Part shown: one piece after another, positions 10,128 to 24,313 of the stretch
How positions within the stretch are numbered: position 1 is the stretch's first letter
Layout: every line of letters begins with the position of its first letter
Source: Candidatus Latescibacterota bacterium
GTDB lineage: Bacteria > JAAXHH01 > JACQVL01
Assembly: GCA_016209865.1 (NCBI GenBank)
Contig: JACQVL010000249.1
Span: forward strand, 1-34,725
Direction: 5' to 3'
Length of the DNA: 34,725 bases
Notes under the pieces: generated by a model
What the model saw: the letters and a program-made list of their open reading frames with translations, nothing else
Told to the model about the DNA's origin: nothing
The model's database searches: none
Made by a program: the position numbers and the translations under genes

Positions 10128-11036
10128 ATGGAACCGCGGATGACACGGAGGGAGTTTATCGCGCAGGCCGCCATGGTGGGCGCGGCGGTGTCTGGCGCGA
10201 GTCTGTTCGGGACGCAGGTGTTCGCCGCGCCGGAATCGGTGATCGCTGTCGCCGCCAACGCCGAGCCAGGACTCCTGGCCCGGCAGGCTGTCAAAGCCTT
10301 GGGTGGGATGCGCCTGTTCGTGAAACCCGGACAACGGGTCATCGTGAAGCCGAACGCCTCGTACGCATGCCCGCCAGAACAAGCGGTCACGACCCATCCC
10401 GCGATCGTCGCAGAAGTCATCAAGATGTGCCATGAAGCGGGCGCGGCCGAAGTCATCGTCCTCGATAGCCCGGTCGAACCTGCCCGGAAAGCGTTCGACA
10501 TCAGCGGCATTCGTGAAGCGGCGGAGCAGGAGAAAGCAGGGGTCATGCTGGCGTCGAGCTTCTATCGGCCGTTGGCCGTGCCGCGAGGTCAGGTCTTGAA
10601 TACGATGACCGTTCATGTCGGGAAGGACGTGCTGGAGGCAGACGTCATCATCAGCGTCCCCATCGCCAAGGCTCATGCGGCGACCGGCTATTCACTCGGC
10701 TTAAAGAGCTTGATGGGGCTGGTCCGGAACCGGCAGGCCTGGCATACCAGCGCCAGCCTGGATCAGTGCATCGCGGATTTTGCCACCGCCATCCGTCCGC
10801 GCCTGACGATCCTCGACGCGCACCGGATTCTGCTGACGAACGGCCCGAAAGGTCCCGGCGAGACGAAGGACGTAGGACAGGTGATCGCGGGGACTGACCC
10901 GGTGGCGGTCGATGCCTACGCCGTGACCCTCTTCGGAGCGACTGCCGCTGACGTGCCGCATATCGCCGCCGCCGCCCGGCTCGGTGTCGGCCAGATGGAC
11001 TTGAAGCAGGTGCGGATCAAGAAGACGTCGGTGTGA
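10128..11036 (+). CDS. Tat-exported DUF362 domain protein
   Basis: A 302-residue protein starting MEPRMTRREFIAQAAMVGAA. ATG 10128 has GGAAGGAGGT upstream; the TTG at 10107 is rejected. The twin-arginine motif TRREFI plus a hydrophobic stretch to about residue 32 (cut near VFAAP) predicts Tat export. The body has DUF362 features: 'VIVKPNASYACPPEQAVTTH', 'AHAATGYSLGLKSLMGLV' and 'ILDAHRILLTNGPKGPG', ending 'GTDPVAVDAYAVTLFG'. No C-terminal ferredoxin motif, common in other DUF362 proteins, is present. The biochemical role of the domain is unsettled. It lies between the small membrane protein and two URO-D genes. The ribosome site can pair with the CCTCC just downstream (GGAG/CTCC), which may weaken translation. 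Confidence 0.88.
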   Translation: MEPRMTRREFIAQAAMVGAAVSGASLFGTQVFAAPESVIAVAANAEPGLLARQAVKALGGMRLFVKPGQRVIVKPNASYACPPEQAVTTHPAIVAEVIKMCHEAGAAEVIVLDSPVEPARKAFDISGIREAAEQEKAGVMLASSFYRPLAVPRGQVLNTMTVHVGKDVLEADVIISVPIAKAHAATGYSLGLKSLMGLVRNRQAWHTSASLDQCIADFATAIRPRLTILDAHRILLTNGPKGPGETKDVGQVIAGTDPVAVDAYAVTLFGATAADVPHIAAAARLGVGQMDLKQVRIKKTSV

Positions 11037-11059
11037 AGGGAGGTCATACGAGTGAGGCG

Positions 11060-12166
11060 ATGACACGCAAAGAACTCAACTTAGCCATCTTTGAGGGGAC
11101 CGCTCAGCACGTGCTGTGGCAGCCGCGCCTGGAGACGTGGATCGCTCATCACATGGAGCGCGATACCCTCCCGGAACGCTTCCGTGGGATGAGTCACCTC
11201 GACATCTACGACGCGCTGAGGTGCTCCATTCGCTACGCCGCTTCCGTCGGGATCGAACGGTGGGACGCCCGGTCTGACCTGGTCCGCATCGAGGAACAGC
11301 ATCCCAGCCACACCGTCTCGCGCGTGCGAACCCCGGCGGGAGAGATCAGCACCGTCTACCGGGATATCTGGGAGGAGAACCGGCGGGTGAACCACCGGAT
11401 TGAAGCGTATCCGGTGAAGACCGTCCAGGAGCTTCGGGTGGTCATCGACCTGATCGACCGCCAGCAGTTCCGGACGAACCCCGAGACGTTCCGTCGCGCC
11501 GCAGAGACAGTAGGACACCGTGGCGAACCGACGATGTTCCTGTCGAGCTCAGGCTTTACCGACCTGATCAAAACCTGGTGCGGCCTCCCCGGGACGTACT
11601 ACTTGCTCCAGGATCATCCGGCCGAGGTAGAGATGTACTTAGAGGCGTGCGACCGCCGGGACGACCGTCTCCTCGACGCCGCGCTGCAGCTCCCGTGCCG
11701 GGTCTTCAACTTAGGGGATCACGCGAACAACGAATTCACGCCGCCCCCCATTCTGAAGAAATACCTGTTGCCCAGGTGGCAGCGGATTGCCGATCGGCTG
11801 CACACAGCCGGCCGGTTCGTGCACACCCATTGGGACGGCAACTCGCGACTGATCCTGCCGTTCCTCCGTGAGACCCGTCTGGACGCGGTCGAAGCGCTGA
11901 CTCCCGTCCCGATGTGTGACATGACGCTGGAGGAGATCAAGGAGGCGGTGGGGGATTCGATGGTCGTCCTCGACCTCCTGCGGGCGATCGACTTTTTGCC
12001 CAATTATCCTGTCGAGGCGTTGCTGGACTTCACCCGCCGGGCGATCGATCTGTTCGCGCCACGGCTGATCCTGGGCATCTCGGATGAGATCTCTCAGGTC
12101 GGTCAGATCGAGAAAGTGGAAGCCGTCTCGGAGCTGGTCGATCATATCTGCGGCCTTGCGGCGTAG
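11060..12166 (+). CDS. URO-D superfamily methyltransferase-like protein C
   Basis: About 368 residues starting MTRKELNLAIFEGTAQHVLW. GTG 11033 in the same frame is an alternative start; a GGGAGGT at 11038-11044 lies unusually far from ATG 11060 and GTGAGG lies very near. It is the most divergent of the URO-D set: HTHWDGNSRLILPFLRET is the core barrel segment, and MCDMTLEEIKEAVGDSMVVL and 'LILGISDEIS' end the fold. WDARSDLVRI near residue 75 replaces the usual N-terminal substrate segment. It is followed after 20 bp by URO-D D and lies downstream of DUF362, so these four genes probably form one transcript. Probable corrinoid or folate-linked methyltransferase; substrate unknown. Confidence 0.82.
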   Translation: MTRKELNLAIFEGTAQHVLWQPRLETWIAHHMERDTLPERFRGMSHLDIYDALRCSIRYAASVGIERWDARSDLVRIEEQHPSHTVSRVRTPAGEISTVYRDIWEENRRVNHRIEAYPVKTVQELRVVIDLIDRQQFRTNPETFRRAAETVGHRGEPTMFLSSSGFTDLIKTWCGLPGTYYLLQDHPAEVEMYLEACDRRDDRLLDAALQLPCRVFNLGDHANNEFTPPPILKKYLLPRWQRIADRLHTAGRFVHTHWDGNSRLILPFLRETRLDAVEALTPVPMCDMTLEEIKEAVGDSMVVLDLLRAIDFLPNYPVEALLDFTRRAIDLFAPRLILGISDEISQVGQIEKVEAVSELVDHICGLAA

Positions 12167-12186
12167 TGGTTGAAAAGGGAATCGTT

Positions 12187-13245
12187 ATGACCTCACAAGA
12201 GCGCATCACCCTCGTTCTGTCGCACGGCGTTCCCGACCGGGTGCCGATTCACGACACATACTGGGAGACGACGGTACAGCGGTGGCGGACGGAAGGACTG
12301 CCGGAGGGCGTCTCGCCAGAAGAATATTTTCGGACGGAGATCGTCCGGGTTGCCGGTGATTACACGCTGCAGTTCCCCGTGCGCGTCGTGGAAGAGACCG
12401 ACCGCTACAGGTTGTACTGGGACAGCAACGGGGCGCTGCGCAAAGACCTGCAGACTCCGGACGGATGGACGCCGCAGTGGTTGGATTTTACGATCAAGAG
12501 CAAGGACGATTGGCACATCCATCGCCACCGGATGGGGTTTCACGAGACCCGCATCTCAAGGTCATCCCTCGATGTCTACCACCATGCTCGCCAGCAGGGC
12601 AAGTTCGTCGTCTATTCGGGCCATGCCTGCTTTCACCCGACGTGGGCGAAGATCGGGATGGAGAACGAGCTGATACGGATGATCGAAGACCCCGACTTCA
12701 TCACCGACCTGTTTGCCGCACACACCCAGCTCATGATCGATCTGTACGAGGGAATGCGGCGATTGGGGATGACGTTCGACGCGGCATGGTTCAACGACGA
12801 CTTGGGCTGGACGGTGGCGCCGTTGATCTCCCCCGCCATGTACCGGGAGCTGGTCTTTCCCCATCACAAGCGACTGTGCGACTACTTCGCCGAGCGAGGC
12901 CTCAAGACGATGCTCCACTCTGACGGCAACGTCGGGCCGCTCATTCCCCACTTCCTGGACGCGGGGTTCGTCGCGTTGCACCCGCTCGAAGCGAAGGCCG
13001 GACTGGACGTCCGCGACCTGAAGCGACAGTATGGCGACTGCTTAGTGTTGTTCGGCAACATCGACGTGCGCAGGCTGTCGGGGACGAGAGACGAGATCGA
13101 GGAAGAGATTCGCGCAAAGCTCACCGCCGCCAAAGAGGGCGGAGGCTACATCTATCACTCCGACCATTCCGTCCCGTCCAACGTCTCGTTCGCTGGGTAC
13201 TGTTTTGCCATCGAGATGGTGAAGCAGTATGGAGTCTATGACTAA
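12187..13245 (+). CDS. URO-D superfamily methyltransferase-like protein D
   Basis: A 352-residue protein starting MTSQERITLVLSHGVPDRVP; AAAAGGGA precedes ATG 12187, and an in-frame GTG at 12166 is less likely. Typical URO-D superfamily segments are the N-terminal 'QERI..VL.H..PDRVP', 'FNDDLGWTVAPLISPAMYRE', 'MLHSDGNVGPLIPHFLDAG', 'LFGNIDVRRLSG' and 'YIYHSDHSVPSNVSF'. The H-S-D-G-N motif occupies the position where MtaA-type enzymes have a zinc-binding H-x-C. It resembles URO-D B most closely in layout and length. It is last of the rightward sigma-54 set; an inverted repeat follows before napA. Confidence 0.88.
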   Translation: MTSQERITLVLSHGVPDRVPIHDTYWETTVQRWRTEGLPEGVSPEEYFRTEIVRVAGDYTLQFPVRVVEETDRYRLYWDSNGALRKDLQTPDGWTPQWLDFTIKSKDDWHIHRHRMGFHETRISRSSLDVYHHARQQGKFVVYSGHACFHPTWAKIGMENELIRMIEDPDFITDLFAAHTQLMIDLYEGMRRLGMTFDAAWFNDDLGWTVAPLISPAMYRELVFPHHKRLCDYFAERGLKTMLHSDGNVGPLIPHFLDAGFVALHPLEAKAGLDVRDLKRQYGDCLVLFGNIDVRRLSGTRDEIEEEIRAKLTAAKEGGGYIYHSDHSVPSNVSFAGYCFAIEMVKQYGVYD

Positions 13246-17471: not shown

Positions 17472-18512
17472 ATGACCCCCCGTGAACGAGTCCTCCACGC
17501 GATCACCCGACGCCAAACGGACAAAACCCCCAAAGAGGCCGGCTTCACTCCGGCTGCCTTCGAACGATTCCGTGAACACACCGGGAGCGACGACCCTGCG
17601 GCCTACTTCAGGATGGAACCCCGGAGCGTGGGGTTTCATCCACCGGCCGGGTTGAACGATTTCTCCGCCTACCTCCAGCGCCTGCCCGAAGGCGCCCGCA
17701 TCAACAGCGAGTACGGCACGGCGGAAGTGCCGGGCGATTTTTATCATTTCACCCACCGTGTCTTTCCTCTACAGACTGCGAACACGGTCACGGAGATCGA
17801 AGCGTACCCGTGGCCCGATTTTACCCCATCCTACCGCCATACCCATCTTGACGCAGAAGTGCAGCGATGGCATGACGCCGGGTATTTCGTCGATGCGTTC
17901 GCCGGCCACATCTTTGAGGTCGCCTGGCAGCTCATCGGGTTCGAGGAGATGTTCGAGAAAATGATCACCAACCCGCCGTTCGTCGAGGCCGTGTTCGAAC
18001 ACATCACGAAGGACAACTGCTTCAAAGCGCGACGGATGGCGGAAGCGGGGATCGACATGCTCCGTTTAGGCGACGACGTCGGGATGCAGGACCGGCTGAT
18101 GATGCAGCCAGACATGTGGCGGCGGTACCTGAAACCCCGGCTGGGACGGGTCATCCAGGCCGCCCGCGATGTGAACCCATCCATTCCGGTGTGGTATCAC
18201 AGCGATGGAGACATCAGTCTGATCATCGACGATCTGATCGAAGTCGGGGTGACCGTCCTCAACCCGGTCCAGCCGGAATGTATGGATGTGTACGCATTGC
18301 AGCGCCAGTACAGCGACCGACTCGCGTTCTGGGGGACGATCGGGACGCAGACGGTGATGCCGTTCGGCACGCCCGATGACGTCCGCCGGACGGTGCGGGA
18401 GATGATCGCCCTCTTCGGCCCCGGCCTCGTCCTCGCGCCCACGCACGTCCTGGAGCCGGAAGTGCCCTGGGAAAACATCGTCGCGTTTTTCGAAGCGGTA
18501 GAAGATCACTAA
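17472..18512 (+). CDS. URO-D superfamily methyltransferase-like protein E
   Basis: A 346-residue protein starting MTPRERVLHAITRRQTDKTP with GAGGAG upstream. 'AGIDMLRLGDDVGMQDRLMM', 'VWYHSDGDISLIIDDLIEVG' and 'NPVQPECMDVYALQRQY' are strong superfamily matches, closer to well-known URO-D-like methyltransferases than members A-D. The N-terminal 'PKEAGFTPAAFERF' replaces the usual PDR-P start, so the haem-enzyme tetrapyrrole site is not conserved. It is the fifth family member in this window and lies inside the nitrate/nitrite block next to a radical SAM gene. It could be a methyltransferase, or less likely act on a tetrapyrrole needed for cytochromes. Confidence 0.88.
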   Translation: MTPRERVLHAITRRQTDKTPKEAGFTPAAFERFREHTGSDDPAAYFRMEPRSVGFHPPAGLNDFSAYLQRLPEGARINSEYGTAEVPGDFYHFTHRVFPLQTANTVTEIEAYPWPDFTPSYRHTHLDAEVQRWHDAGYFVDAFAGHIFEVAWQLIGFEEMFEKMITNPPFVEAVFEHITKDNCFKARRMAEAGIDMLRLGDDVGMQDRLMMQPDMWRRYLKPRLGRVIQAARDVNPSIPVWYHSDGDISLIIDDLIEVGVTVLNPVQPECMDVYALQRQYSDRLAFWGTIGTQTVMPFGTPDDVRRTVREMIALFGPGLVLAPTHVLEPEVPWENIVAFFEAVEDH

Positions 18513-21685: not shown

Positions 21686-22819
21686 ATGCGCTTTTCAGGA
21701 GACTTCGCTCAGGCACCCTTCCTGGTCATCTGGGAGGTCACGCGGAGTTGTGCGCTCGCCTGCCGGCACTGCCGCGCCGAGGCGATCGACTGGCGGCATC
21801 CGGATGAGCTCACCCTCGACGAGGGCAGGCGGCTGCTCGACGATGTCGCGCGGATGGGAACGCCCATCGTCATCTTGACGGGCGGAGACCCGCTGCAGCG
21901 CGATGACCTGGAAGGGTTGATCCGGCACGGCAAGCAGGCGGGATTACGGGTGGGGACGATCCCGGCGGCCACTCCTCGTCTGACGCGGGATCGGGTGGAA
22001 TCGCTGAAAGCCGCCCACCTGGATCAGATGGCGTTGAGTCTCGACGGCTGCACTGCGGACAAACACGATGAATTCCGGCGGGTAGAAGGTTCGTTCGCCA
22101 AGACGATGGAAGGGGCGGAATGGGCCAGAGAAGCAGGTCTTCCCTTACAGATCAATACCGTGTTTGGAGCCTGGAATGTCGAAGACTTTGCAACGCTGGC
22201 TGCGCTCGTTGAATCGCTCGGCGTGGTGTTCTGGGAAGTTTTTTTTCTCGTGCCCACCGGTCGCGGTGCGGCCCTGCAAGGCTGTTCGGCTGAACAATGC
22301 GAACAGGTGTTCGACAAACTCTACCAGATGGCTCAACGTGTCCCGTTTGTGATTAAAGTGACGGAAGCGCCCCATTACCGCCGGTTTCTGATGCAGCAAA
22401 CGGGAGCGACGAGTGTACGGCCGCTCCGGCGGCAGGGGATAGGACAACCCTCAGCTTCTCCCCCTGAATCCGGGCACGGGTTAACGATGACCCTGCCGGG
22501 CGTCAACGCCGGCAAGGGGTTCTGTTTCGTCGATCACGTGGGGAACGTCTGTCCCAGCGGGTTTCTGCCGATCCAGGTGGGAAACGTCCGGCAAACGTCC
22601 GTGATCGACCTCTACCGGACTTCCTCTCTCTTTCAGGAGTTGCGAAACCCCGACCTCTTGAAAGGCCGGTGCGGCCGGTGCGAATACCGGACGGTCTGCG
22701 GCGGGTCGCGCGCCCGCGCGTATGCCCTCACGGACGATTACTTAGCGGAAGACCCCGCCTGTCTCTATTCGCCAGCCGGGGTGTTGTCTGAACCGGTCAT
22801 GTCAACGACACCTGACTGA
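21686..22819 (+). CDS. Radical SAM/SPASM protein (haem-synthesis AhbD/NirJ-like or TIGR04053-like)
   Basis: A 377-residue protein starting MRFSGDFAQAPFLVIWEVTR, 3 bp after nrfA. Radical SAM cluster C22-x3-C26-x2-C29 in CALACRHC; ILTGGDPLQRDD is the GGDP-type SAM motif. The C-terminal SPASM region includes CFVDHVGNVCPSG, then CGRCEYRTVCGGSRARAY and a final Cys. The opening 'F..APFLVIWEVTRSCALAC' matches the subgroup that includes AhbD/NirJ-type tetrapyrrole side-chain enzymes. Next to nrf genes it may serve haem supply for the pentahaem enzyme, which is an inference. The gene's stop codon lies in a small hairpin, at the beginning of a long structured untranslated region. Confidence 0.85.
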   Translation: MRFSGDFAQAPFLVIWEVTRSCALACRHCRAEAIDWRHPDELTLDEGRRLLDDVARMGTPIVILTGGDPLQRDDLEGLIRHGKQAGLRVGTIPAATPRLTRDRVESLKAAHLDQMALSLDGCTADKHDEFRRVEGSFAKTMEGAEWAREAGLPLQINTVFGAWNVEDFATLAALVESLGVVFWEVFFLVPTGRGAALQGCSAEQCEQVFDKLYQMAQRVPFVIKVTEAPHYRRFLMQQTGATSVRPLRRQGIGQPSASPPESGHGLTMTLPGVNAGKGFCFVDHVGNVCPSGFLPIQVGNVRQTSVIDLYRTSSLFQELRNPDLLKGRCGRCEYRTVCGGSRARAYALTDDYLAEDPACLYSPAGVLSEPVMSTTPD

Positions 22820-23068
22820 AGTCAGATGCTTGTGACTCACCGCTGAGGCGGTGTCCACGTTCGGCTGGTTGACAGCAGCCCTGTCGGGTGACCCCGACAG
22901 TGAAAGGCACAAGACCGATGTCTTGACGTTGAAGGTTTTACGTCTCAGACGATTCCCTGAGACAACCCCGTATCTTCAGTTCTCAAAGAACCTACGAGCG
23001 GTTGTCTCCCCGTCCGGGGAGTGCCTTGCCCAGAAGATACCGGCAAGCGCGCGCGCTGTCAAGTCAAG
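22812..23068 (+). ncRNA. Highly structured untranslated region, candidate cis-regulatory RNA
   Basis: At least nine perfect stems occur in 257 nt. Stem CTGAC/GTCAG (22812-22825). Closing stem CTTGTG (22829-22834)/CACAAG (22908-22913) encloses three hairpins: CACCGC/GCGGTG (22838-22853), GGCTG/CAGCC (22863-22880) and CTGTCGGG/CCCGACAG (22881-22900). CAAGAC/GTCTTG (22910-22925) competes with the closing stem. GTCTCAG/CTGAGAC (22942-22963) follows. A second closing stem GTATCTTC (22970-22977)/GAAGATAC (23033-23040) holds GTTCT/AGAAC (22979-22991) and CTCCCC/GGGGAG (23006-23021); CTTGCC/GGCAAG (23025-23047) competes with it. Layout of a multi-branch junction with mutually exclusive stems suggests a switch ahead of the histidine kinase gene at 23111. 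No known riboswitch consensus was recognised. Confidence 0.55.
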
Positions 23069-23110
23069 AATGCCTGCATCAATTCAGGGGTTTCCACACG
23101 GAGAAGGTCT

Positions 23111-24313
23111 ATGAAACCCTCGACGGTATGGTTTTCCTTCAAAACCTGGGCCTTGGGCATTCCCGTCCGTATGAAAATTATGGGGATTGCCTTCGGACTC
23201 CTCGTCCTGATGGGGTTTGGCGTGATAATCGAGGCCCGGTGGAGTCTCGCGGCGCTCCTGGACGGGATCGTCACCGGCCGGCCGGCGAGCGTCATGCTCG
23301 TCCCCTCTGATCCGGTCGTTCACCGCAAGACCCTGGAAGAGTTTCGTAAGGACGCCCTCACCACGATCACCTATCATCTTTCAGAGGTGATCGGGATCAT
23401 CGCTCTGGTGGGCATCGGGGTGGCGTATTTCCTGACCGGCCTGATTACAACCCCGATCCGGGAACTGGTAGCCGTGACCGAATCGGTCGGGCGGGGAGAT
23501 TTCCGGAGGAAAGCCCAGGTTCATGCTAACGATGAGGTCGGACAACTCAGCACCGCTTTCAACGCGATGATCGACCGCCTGCGTGATACCCAGGAGGAAC
23601 TGCGGCACAAGGAGCAAATGCGTTCCCAGCTCCTGAGACAAGTGATCTTTGCCCAGGAAGAAGAGCGTCAGCGCATCGCCCGTGAACTGCACGACCAGAT
23701 CGGCCAGACGCTGACATCCATCCTGGTCGGCCTGAAAGTCATCGAGACGACGGATGCTTCGGAGAACGTCCATGCACGGGTCGCGGAACTCCGATCCTTC
23801 GTCACCCAGGCGTTCGATGAAGTCCATAACCTCGCCCTCAACCTGCGTCCGAGCGTTTTAGATGACCTGGGACTTCCGGCGGCGCTCCGACGCTACGTCG
23901 ACGGATTCTCCAGACAGTTTGCCATCCCGGTGGATTATCAGACGATCGGGTTCGATCATGAAGTGCGTTTACCGACGGAGGTGGAGACGACGGTCTACCG
24001 GATCGTCCAGGAAATGCTGACCAACGTCGTCCGCCACGCGAACGCCACGACCGTGAACCTGCTCCTCCAGCATAATCTATCGCGAGTACAGGTCATCGTC
24101 GATGACGATGGCGTGGGCTTCGATGTTTCCGCCGTGTTGAGCGCCCGGGGGCGGCAACACCTCGGATTGTTCGGGATGCAAGAACGAGCGTCGCTCTTCG
24201 GGGGAACACTGACTGTGGAATCAACTCCGGGCTCTGGCACCACTGTCATCGTCGATATTCCGCTCGGCAAAGGAGCGCGAAATGGAACGGATCCGGATTC
24301 TGTTAGCGGATGA
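23111..24313 (+). CDS. NarX-like membrane histidine kinase (HAMP, HisKA_3)
   Basis: A 400-residue protein; ATG 23111 follows GGAGAAGG. An upstream in-frame start at 23021 would lie in the structured RNA and is rejected. Membrane helices about 21-41 and 91-111 frame a short periplasmic loop of ~49 residues; HAMP about 112-165; HisKA_3 box [17 protein letters not shown] with His184; HATPase with '[16 protein letters not shown]', VDDDGVGFD and '[14 protein letters not shown]'. The kinase phosphorylates the response regulator whose gene overlaps its 3' end by 32 bp. Position after the nitrate/nitrite genes suggests sensing of electron acceptor or redox state, but the loop lacks a recognisable NarX P-box. 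Confidence 0.9.

Follow-up and report, generated by a model that had tools for sequence, protein, structure and literature searches.

The DNA analysed here (the window) is a stretch of 34,725 nucleotides from the genome of a Candidatus Latescibacterota bacterium (GenBank assembly GCA_016209865.1, contig JACQVL010000249.1). It encodes a radical SAM protein and, downstream on the same strand, a HAMP/HisKA_3/HATPase sensor kinase, whose gene is followed by that of a LuxR-type regulator; the region between the first two genes is rich in potential RNA stems (Table 1). A previous sequence-only reading, which had named both neighbours correctly, took positions 22812-23068 for a new structured RNA with two competing folds, namely a riboswitch ahead of the kinase. 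Elsewhere in the window, look-alikes of the uroporphyrinogen decarboxylase family were recognised by eye at 1089-2186, 11033-12166, 12166-13245 and 17472-18512, and these neighbour radical SAM, multihaem cytochrome and molybdopterin oxidoreductase genes.

The abundance of stems is genuine. The stretch holds nine non-overlapping perfect hairpins (at least 5 bp, loops of 3-12), compared with 2.1 +/- 1.2 and a maximum of six in 300 dinucleotide shuffles, in agreement with the nine or more perfect stems described earlier, and all eight stem words quoted at the time are located at their places in the window. The folding z-scores of the stretch are -3.6 (plus strand) and -4.0 (minus strand), and that of the minus-strand RNA from its predicted start to the element end is -5.2. 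The earlier reading had recognised no known class, and likewise a search with the Rfam covariance models gave no family at cut-off, either in the window or in the five related loci searched, by which a known RNA class was rejected.

Table 1. Genes, quoted stems and features of the element in the window (strand - denotes the complement)
Feature	Position	Strand	Remarks
Radical SAM gene	21686..22819	+	last codons (STTPD) and stop supplied by the element's right end
HAMP/HisKA_3/HATPase sensor kinase gene	23111..24313	+	GGAG (23100-23103) before ATG supplied by the element's left end
Quoted closing stem 1	22829 / 22908		CTTGTG / CACAAG
Quoted closing stem 2	22970 / 23033		GTATCTTC / GAAGATAC
Quoted competing hairpin	22910 / 22920		CAAGAC / GTCTTG
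Quoted competing hairpin	23025 / 23042		CTTGCC / GGCAAG
Whole element, PATE-like	22801..23110	-	left end 23110, right end 22801; copies, ends common to tnpB elements
Target motif (TAM-like) TTCAT	23111..23115	-	at left end; plus strand gives kinase start ATGAA
Left-end imperfect palindrome	23073..23088	-	CCTGAA-TTGA-TGCAGG; read from sequence
Predicted promoter TTGACA-17-TATCTT	23034..23062	-	1 found, 0.1 expected; predicted start near 23027
boxA-like motif	22979..22991	-	GTTCTTTGAGAAC
Conserved 56-nt two-helix RNA domain	22926..22981	-	covariation; model R2
P2	22972-22978 with 22930-22936	-	
P3	22957-22963 with 22942-22948	-	
Hairpin CAAGAC-ATCG-GTCTTG	22910..22925	-	stem identical in L002
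Hairpin beside scaffold	22881..22900	-	CTGTCGGG-GTCA-CCCGACAG
omegaRNA scaffold	22801..22881	-	R1 E=5.7e-19 (rough); covariation; ISDra2-like architecture
Scaffold stem 1	22876-22880/22863-22867	-	GGCTG/CAGCC
Scaffold pseudoknot	22868-22873 with 22801-22806	-	GTCAAC in stem 1 loop pairs with GTTGAC
Scaffold stem 3 hairpin	22838-22853	-	
Scaffold stem 4 (right-end hairpin)	22809-22828	-	TTCA loop at -20 to -17
Expected 16-nt guide	22785..22800	-	ATGACCGGTTCAGACA; predicted from TnpB biology; antisense to radical SAM gene end

When the element was searched for at the DNA level in the host genome (a single assembly of 3.75 Mb, 83% complete), five places matched. A second copy on contig C213 (L002) lies between two convergent genes; it is 87% identical over 229 bp and matches once more at the far end. 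A partial copy on C236 (L003), which precedes a sugar-isomerase-like gene, is 100% identical over 137 bp from the contig edge to window position 23115 and unrelated beyond. On C356 and C175, the match is confined to the last 80-90 bp, i.e. the 3' end of a tnpB gene and the right end of its element. Indeed, the termini of the window element resemble those of tnpB elements in the same genome, with left-end and right-end hairpins common to L007 and L009; in L002 and L009 the left-end palindrome has 8 bp and a TTCA loop. The target motif is TTCAT in the window, L003 and L009/L024, and CTCAT in L002, and no direct repeat was found flanking the element, i.e. there is no target duplication. The element encodes no protein; all that is left of tnpB is a decayed remnant of the 3' end of the gene, about 40 C-terminal codons. 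Judged by these sequence features, 22801-23110 of the minus strand is a dispersed 310-bp element of the IS200/IS605 type without tnpA and tnpB (a PATE, see below), and it almost certainly carries an omegaRNA scaffold. The extent of the unit is thereby corrected to these limits plus the target motif to 23115. No PF01797 match, which would indicate the Y1 transposase TnpA, was found in the 83% complete host assembly, nor did PF12323 match in this genome. A DNA search of 16 genomes of the phylum found copies in the host genome only and right-end remnants in G011, while the exact interior pattern gave one chance 20-bp match, to a Roseitalea sequence, in genome contigs, and interior patterns gave none in viral contigs.

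The element has inserted beside a TTCAT motif, at what was probably a start-stop overlap of the radical SAM and kinase genes. When the flanks are joined without it, they read CCG GTC ATA TGA AAC (...V I stop) with a plausible ATGA overlap, in which the stop of the upstream gene would have overlapped the ATG of the kinase. With the element in place, the radical SAM gene takes a new stop from the right end, and the kinase a GGAG from the left end. In an occupied-versus-empty comparison, the radical SAM/kinase pair was not adjacent in the relatives examined.

The right end of the element contains a complete omegaRNA scaffold. We have built a covariance model, R1, from 14 sequences comprising whole or partial tnpB genes and two tnpB remnants of G011, with the two gene-less copies left out; its single match in the window, 22801-22881 of the minus strand, scores 81.9 bits. 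Genome-wide, R1 matched above 20 bits four tnpB elements, two copies and one solo scaffold on C19, and nothing else. The solo scaffold (L056 948-1039, G000:C19; 49.9 bits) abuts the start of a neighbouring gene, and no TnpB or left-end palindrome was recognised at it. The same architecture is common to the right ends of related tnpB elements from the host genome, G011, G025, G075, G223 and G346 and from plasmids of Rhodovastum, Parageobacillus, Methanohalobium and Rhodothermus; an automatic pseudoknot-architecture scan missed or misread loci (L026, L011, L013 and L023 among them), which were read by eye instead. In ISDra2, the last bases of the element pair with the stem 1 loop, and the stem 4 tetraloop lies at -20 to -17 (PMC10097598). 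The window scaffold shares with this omegaRNA (reRNA) a stem 1 loop that pairs with the final bases at the right end, as well as stems 2-4, the tetraloop at -20 to -17 and the predicted flank-derived guide (PMC8612924, PMC10097598); unlike it, the window element has no overlapping or adjoining tnpB gene, a predicted promoter of its own and an extra 5' domain of about 145 nt.

Covariation supports the scaffold. In an alignment of 16 sequences, the same from which the stems were drawn, 93.2% of cells pair, compared with 72.4% when shuffled and at most 48% when slid; two-sided changes occur at 18 of the 24 pairs, pseudoknot included, and the covariation score is 0.57 vs 0.16. Adjoining the scaffold, the hairpin CTGTCGGG/CCCGACAG has in L002 the counterpart CTGTCAGA/TCTGACAG, with two compensatory changes and no broken pair. 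Compensatory changes in homologues, which the sequence-only reading had proposed to look for, are thus present, both in the scaffold and in the 5' domain described below. Furthermore, the scaffold helices contain 23 G.U cells vs two A.C cells, so the minus strand is the RNA.

The predicted promoter on this strand is kept in L002 as TTGACA-17-TATCGT, and the start of tnpB in L007 carries TTGACA-17-TATATT. We infer that the element RNA is transcribed. The promoter would give a minus-strand RNA of about 227 nt containing, in this order, the boxA-like motif, the P2/P3 domain, linking hairpins and the full omegaRNA scaffold. Since it is directed through the RNA into the flank, and the scaffold ends exactly at the right end, transcription running on would add a terminal guide copied from the insertion site. 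At 23025-23047 of the minus strand, and likewise in L002 and L007, an inverted repeat of varying sequence (CTTGCC/GGCAAG, GCTTC/GAAGC and TTCTCAAT/ATTGAGAA) encloses or overlaps the -10 box, and may be an operator.

These observations bear directly on the possibility that a plus-strand riboswitch or attenuator controls the kinase, as had been suggested by the location before the kinase gene, the numerous stems and the absence of an Rfam match. The G.U bias and the promoter, however, both belong to the minus strand, and the promoter faces away from the kinase. Moreover, the sequence is flanked by convergent genes in L002, where it leads no gene, and stands before a sugar-isomerase-like gene in L003, so that a position upstream of a regulated gene is not conserved, and the orthologous radical SAM genes examined have no adjoining kinase. 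Neither of the two quoted closing stems is conserved in L002: CTTGTG/CACAAG retains just four Watson-Crick pairs, and GTATCTTC/GAAGATAC, which amounts to the -10 box pairing with a strand of another helix, is broken. A riboswitch or kinase leader was therefore rejected by reason of strand, differing contexts and unconserved closing stems, and we regard it as extremely improbable. What holds of the proposed new structured RNA is that it is structured, covarying and without an Rfam match; it is the minus-strand RNA of a mobile element rather than a kinase leader. A match to a mobile element, which had been named in advance as speaking against the earlier reading, was found in the dispersed copies and the omegaRNA-type right end.

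Upstream of the scaffold, the RNA has a 5' domain with the consensus AACUGAA..U...GGUU-[P3]-GUAAAA..UUCA, in which GGUU and GUAAAA are invariant. We came upon this domain by two routes. Searches of other genomes with R1 pointed to scaffolds without TnpB in G075 and G216, and the non-coding 5' part of these has motifs in common with the window; independently, a plasmid search with the window element led to Peribacillus asahii and Bacillus arachidis, and thence to Brevibacillus halotolerans, so that three Bacillota plasmids also carry it. P3 pairs throughout (100%) in a set of nine sequences, and two-sided changes are seen at 7 of its 7 pairs. On 15 sequences, including loci found by the model only and being those from which the stems were read, 94.3% of the P2/P3 cells pair vs 63% when shuffled and at most 49% when slid, 70 cells show two-sided changes, and the covariation score is 0.89 vs 0.24 in shuffles. 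Most members carry one mismatch in P2, and in the minimum-energy fold of the window RNA a GACAACC-GGUUGUC pairing replaces the complete P2/P3 domain. The boxA-like motif, judged by eye, is good and directly precedes the core in six members (window, L002, L119, L120, L121 and L128), is weaker in L127/L134/L129/L130, and is absent from the G075/G216 type. Two TnpB-less scaffolds in G025 (L099 and L103) are possibly a second class: a clear GGTCTTTGAACAACTGAATAG of the boxA-like kind stands ahead of them, together with a long 5' region that is different and has no P2/P3 core.

The covariance model of the domain, R2, scores 77.2 bits in the window and found the domain in 7 of the 384 genomes searched. 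Among 51 sources, it matched the window and TnpB-less loci only, and none of the tnpB-carrying loci; tblastn found no TnpB in the newly found P2/P3 loci, and the domain had no match in Rfam 15 (window and five related loci). The domain might be a tracrRNA-like guide-RNA extension for a particular TnpB/Cas12f-like protein rather than a transcription element: wherever the 3' side is readable, it precedes a scaffold or right end, and processed omegaRNAs can be long (PMC10278001). We nevertheless think this unlikely, given that right ends from more than one TnpB clade carry this same domain and that it is missing from the tnpB-linked elements. In G216, the scaffolds of the TnpB-less L118 and the tnpB-linked L087 differ at 1 of 90 positions, and in G075 the end GTAGCTTAC of L116/L117 is also found in the tnpB-linked L097. 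In the Bacillota members, the 3' part is similar to a right end from a different TnpB clade (that of Peptoclostridium tnpB), to which type of right end R1 gave no match. With the same 5' domain on right ends of different clades, the domain looks modular.

Potential protein partners are encoded in the host genome. The tnpB genes on C356 and C175 were confirmed by PF07282, the C175 protein also by Pfam, and the C175 gene is uninterrupted. The right end closest to that of the window element belongs to the C356 tnpB (L024/L009), which has lost its N-terminal part, the left end of the element being fused to about codon 81.

PATEs are the palindrome-associated transposable elements of Haloquadratum walsbyi (PMC3119063), and were described before TnpB guide RNAs were known. 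Like them, the window element has no transposase gene, near-terminal palindromes related to those of the IS605 type and no target duplication, and like HqIRS71 it retains part of the tnpB C-terminal coding region (PMC3119063); unlike them, it keeps a complete omegaRNA scaffold, together with a predicted promoter and a 5' RNA domain that is conserved. Four loci of G011, a genome of the same order (L105, L106, L110 and L112), are deletion derivatives of about 300 bp that share with it the left end, a promoter-like sequence, the omegaRNA right end and the want of a full tnpB. They differ in that the tnpB start is fused in place to its end and the P2/P3 domain is absent, which points to a separate origin. 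In G011 as a whole there are 21 occurrences of the R1 scaffold, many of them at contig ends. As with boxA, the antitermination motif of rRNA operons and CRISPR leaders, a GTTCTTTGARAAC-like motif lies near the start of an untranslated RNA (PMC7862264); unlike known boxA, this putative motif stands directly before P2/P3, and some members of the family do not have it. PATEs as a transposon type and omegaRNAs as a scaffold type are already known. Their combination with a conserved 5' domain, in distant bacteria and in gene-less elements only, was not found in the literature searched; a search for guide-RNA-only TnpB elements returned nothing beyond PATEs. PATE-like elements beside TnpB loci and standalone omegaRNAs of IscB have reportedly been described, and could hold parts of the combination.

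What is observed is the element with its ends and copies, the scaffold with its pseudoknot, the covariation, and a 5' domain that recurs in TnpB-less elements. As the best explanation of these features we consider, with good confidence, a gene-less PATE that would make a guide RNA from its own promoter, with the 5' domain fused to the omegaRNA scaffold. Since the guide RNA of TnpB normally comes from the TnpB mRNA (PMC10278001), an element without the gene needs a promoter of its own. The RNA would be loaded by a TnpB encoded elsewhere, e.g. on C175, and we judge it somewhat more probable than otherwise that it works in trans as a guide RNA. A 'peel, paste and copy' route has been proposed for tnpB elements, in which the cut site is repaired and the element restored (PMC8612924). 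Here, similarly, the guide would match the element-free site beside TTCAT, a TnpB acting in trans would cut that site, repair would copy the element back, and an outside TnpA would move it.

The alternative is a passive PATE, i.e. a tnpB element that lost its gene and persists only as a substrate of TnpA, the RNA parts being functionless left-overs. Terminal-only PATEs and PATEs with tnpB remnants are known (PMC3119063), G011 has derivatives formed by simple deletion, in which the start of tnpB is joined to its end, and the decayed tnpB 3' end is still recognisable in the window element. Of a left-over, however, one would not expect compensatory changes between two copies in one host, a conserved promoter and G.U bias, or P2/P3 kept across distant genomes, and we hold this alternative to be improbable.

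The weakest step of the guide-RNA mechanism is the role of boxA and P2/P3. These parts would keep RNA polymerase going through an untranslated, hairpin-rich RNA or, alternatively, would free expression from its dependence on tnpB mRNA. Untranslated RNA is exposed to Rho. In addition, synthetic CRISPR arrays are boosted by a boxA close to their start (PMC7862264). For both reasons a role in transcription or maturation is the one we favour, although we put it at slightly short of an even chance.

Cas12 descends from TnpB, whose guide RNA is normally excised from the TnpB mRNA itself. It is about an even question whether there is a widespread class of minimal transposons in which a long guide RNA is the sole product, a modular 5' domain sits on scaffolds of various TnpB clades, and the TnpB and TnpA of others are used. 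If so, such elements would be guide-RNA parasites or partners of RNA-guided nucleases, retained via the TnpB of others; they would show a guide RNA becoming a separate gene, a step towards CRISPR-like systems, and would make the exploitation of TnpB in trans by nuclease-less transposons testable. P2/P3 is in addition a covariation-supported RNA motif without a match in Rfam 15 as far as tested.

Related sequences were also noticed outside chromosomes. A gene-free stretch in Bacillus phage SIOphi (L122 1501-1582) and in phages KKP_4047 to KKP_4050 matches the 3' half of the Peribacillus element, and by its sequence looks like a TnpB-less right end. In addition, the right-end part of L121 (Brevibacillus) has 36-47 bp in common with 39 Enterococcus plasmid records, those compared being Enterococcus faecium plasmids.
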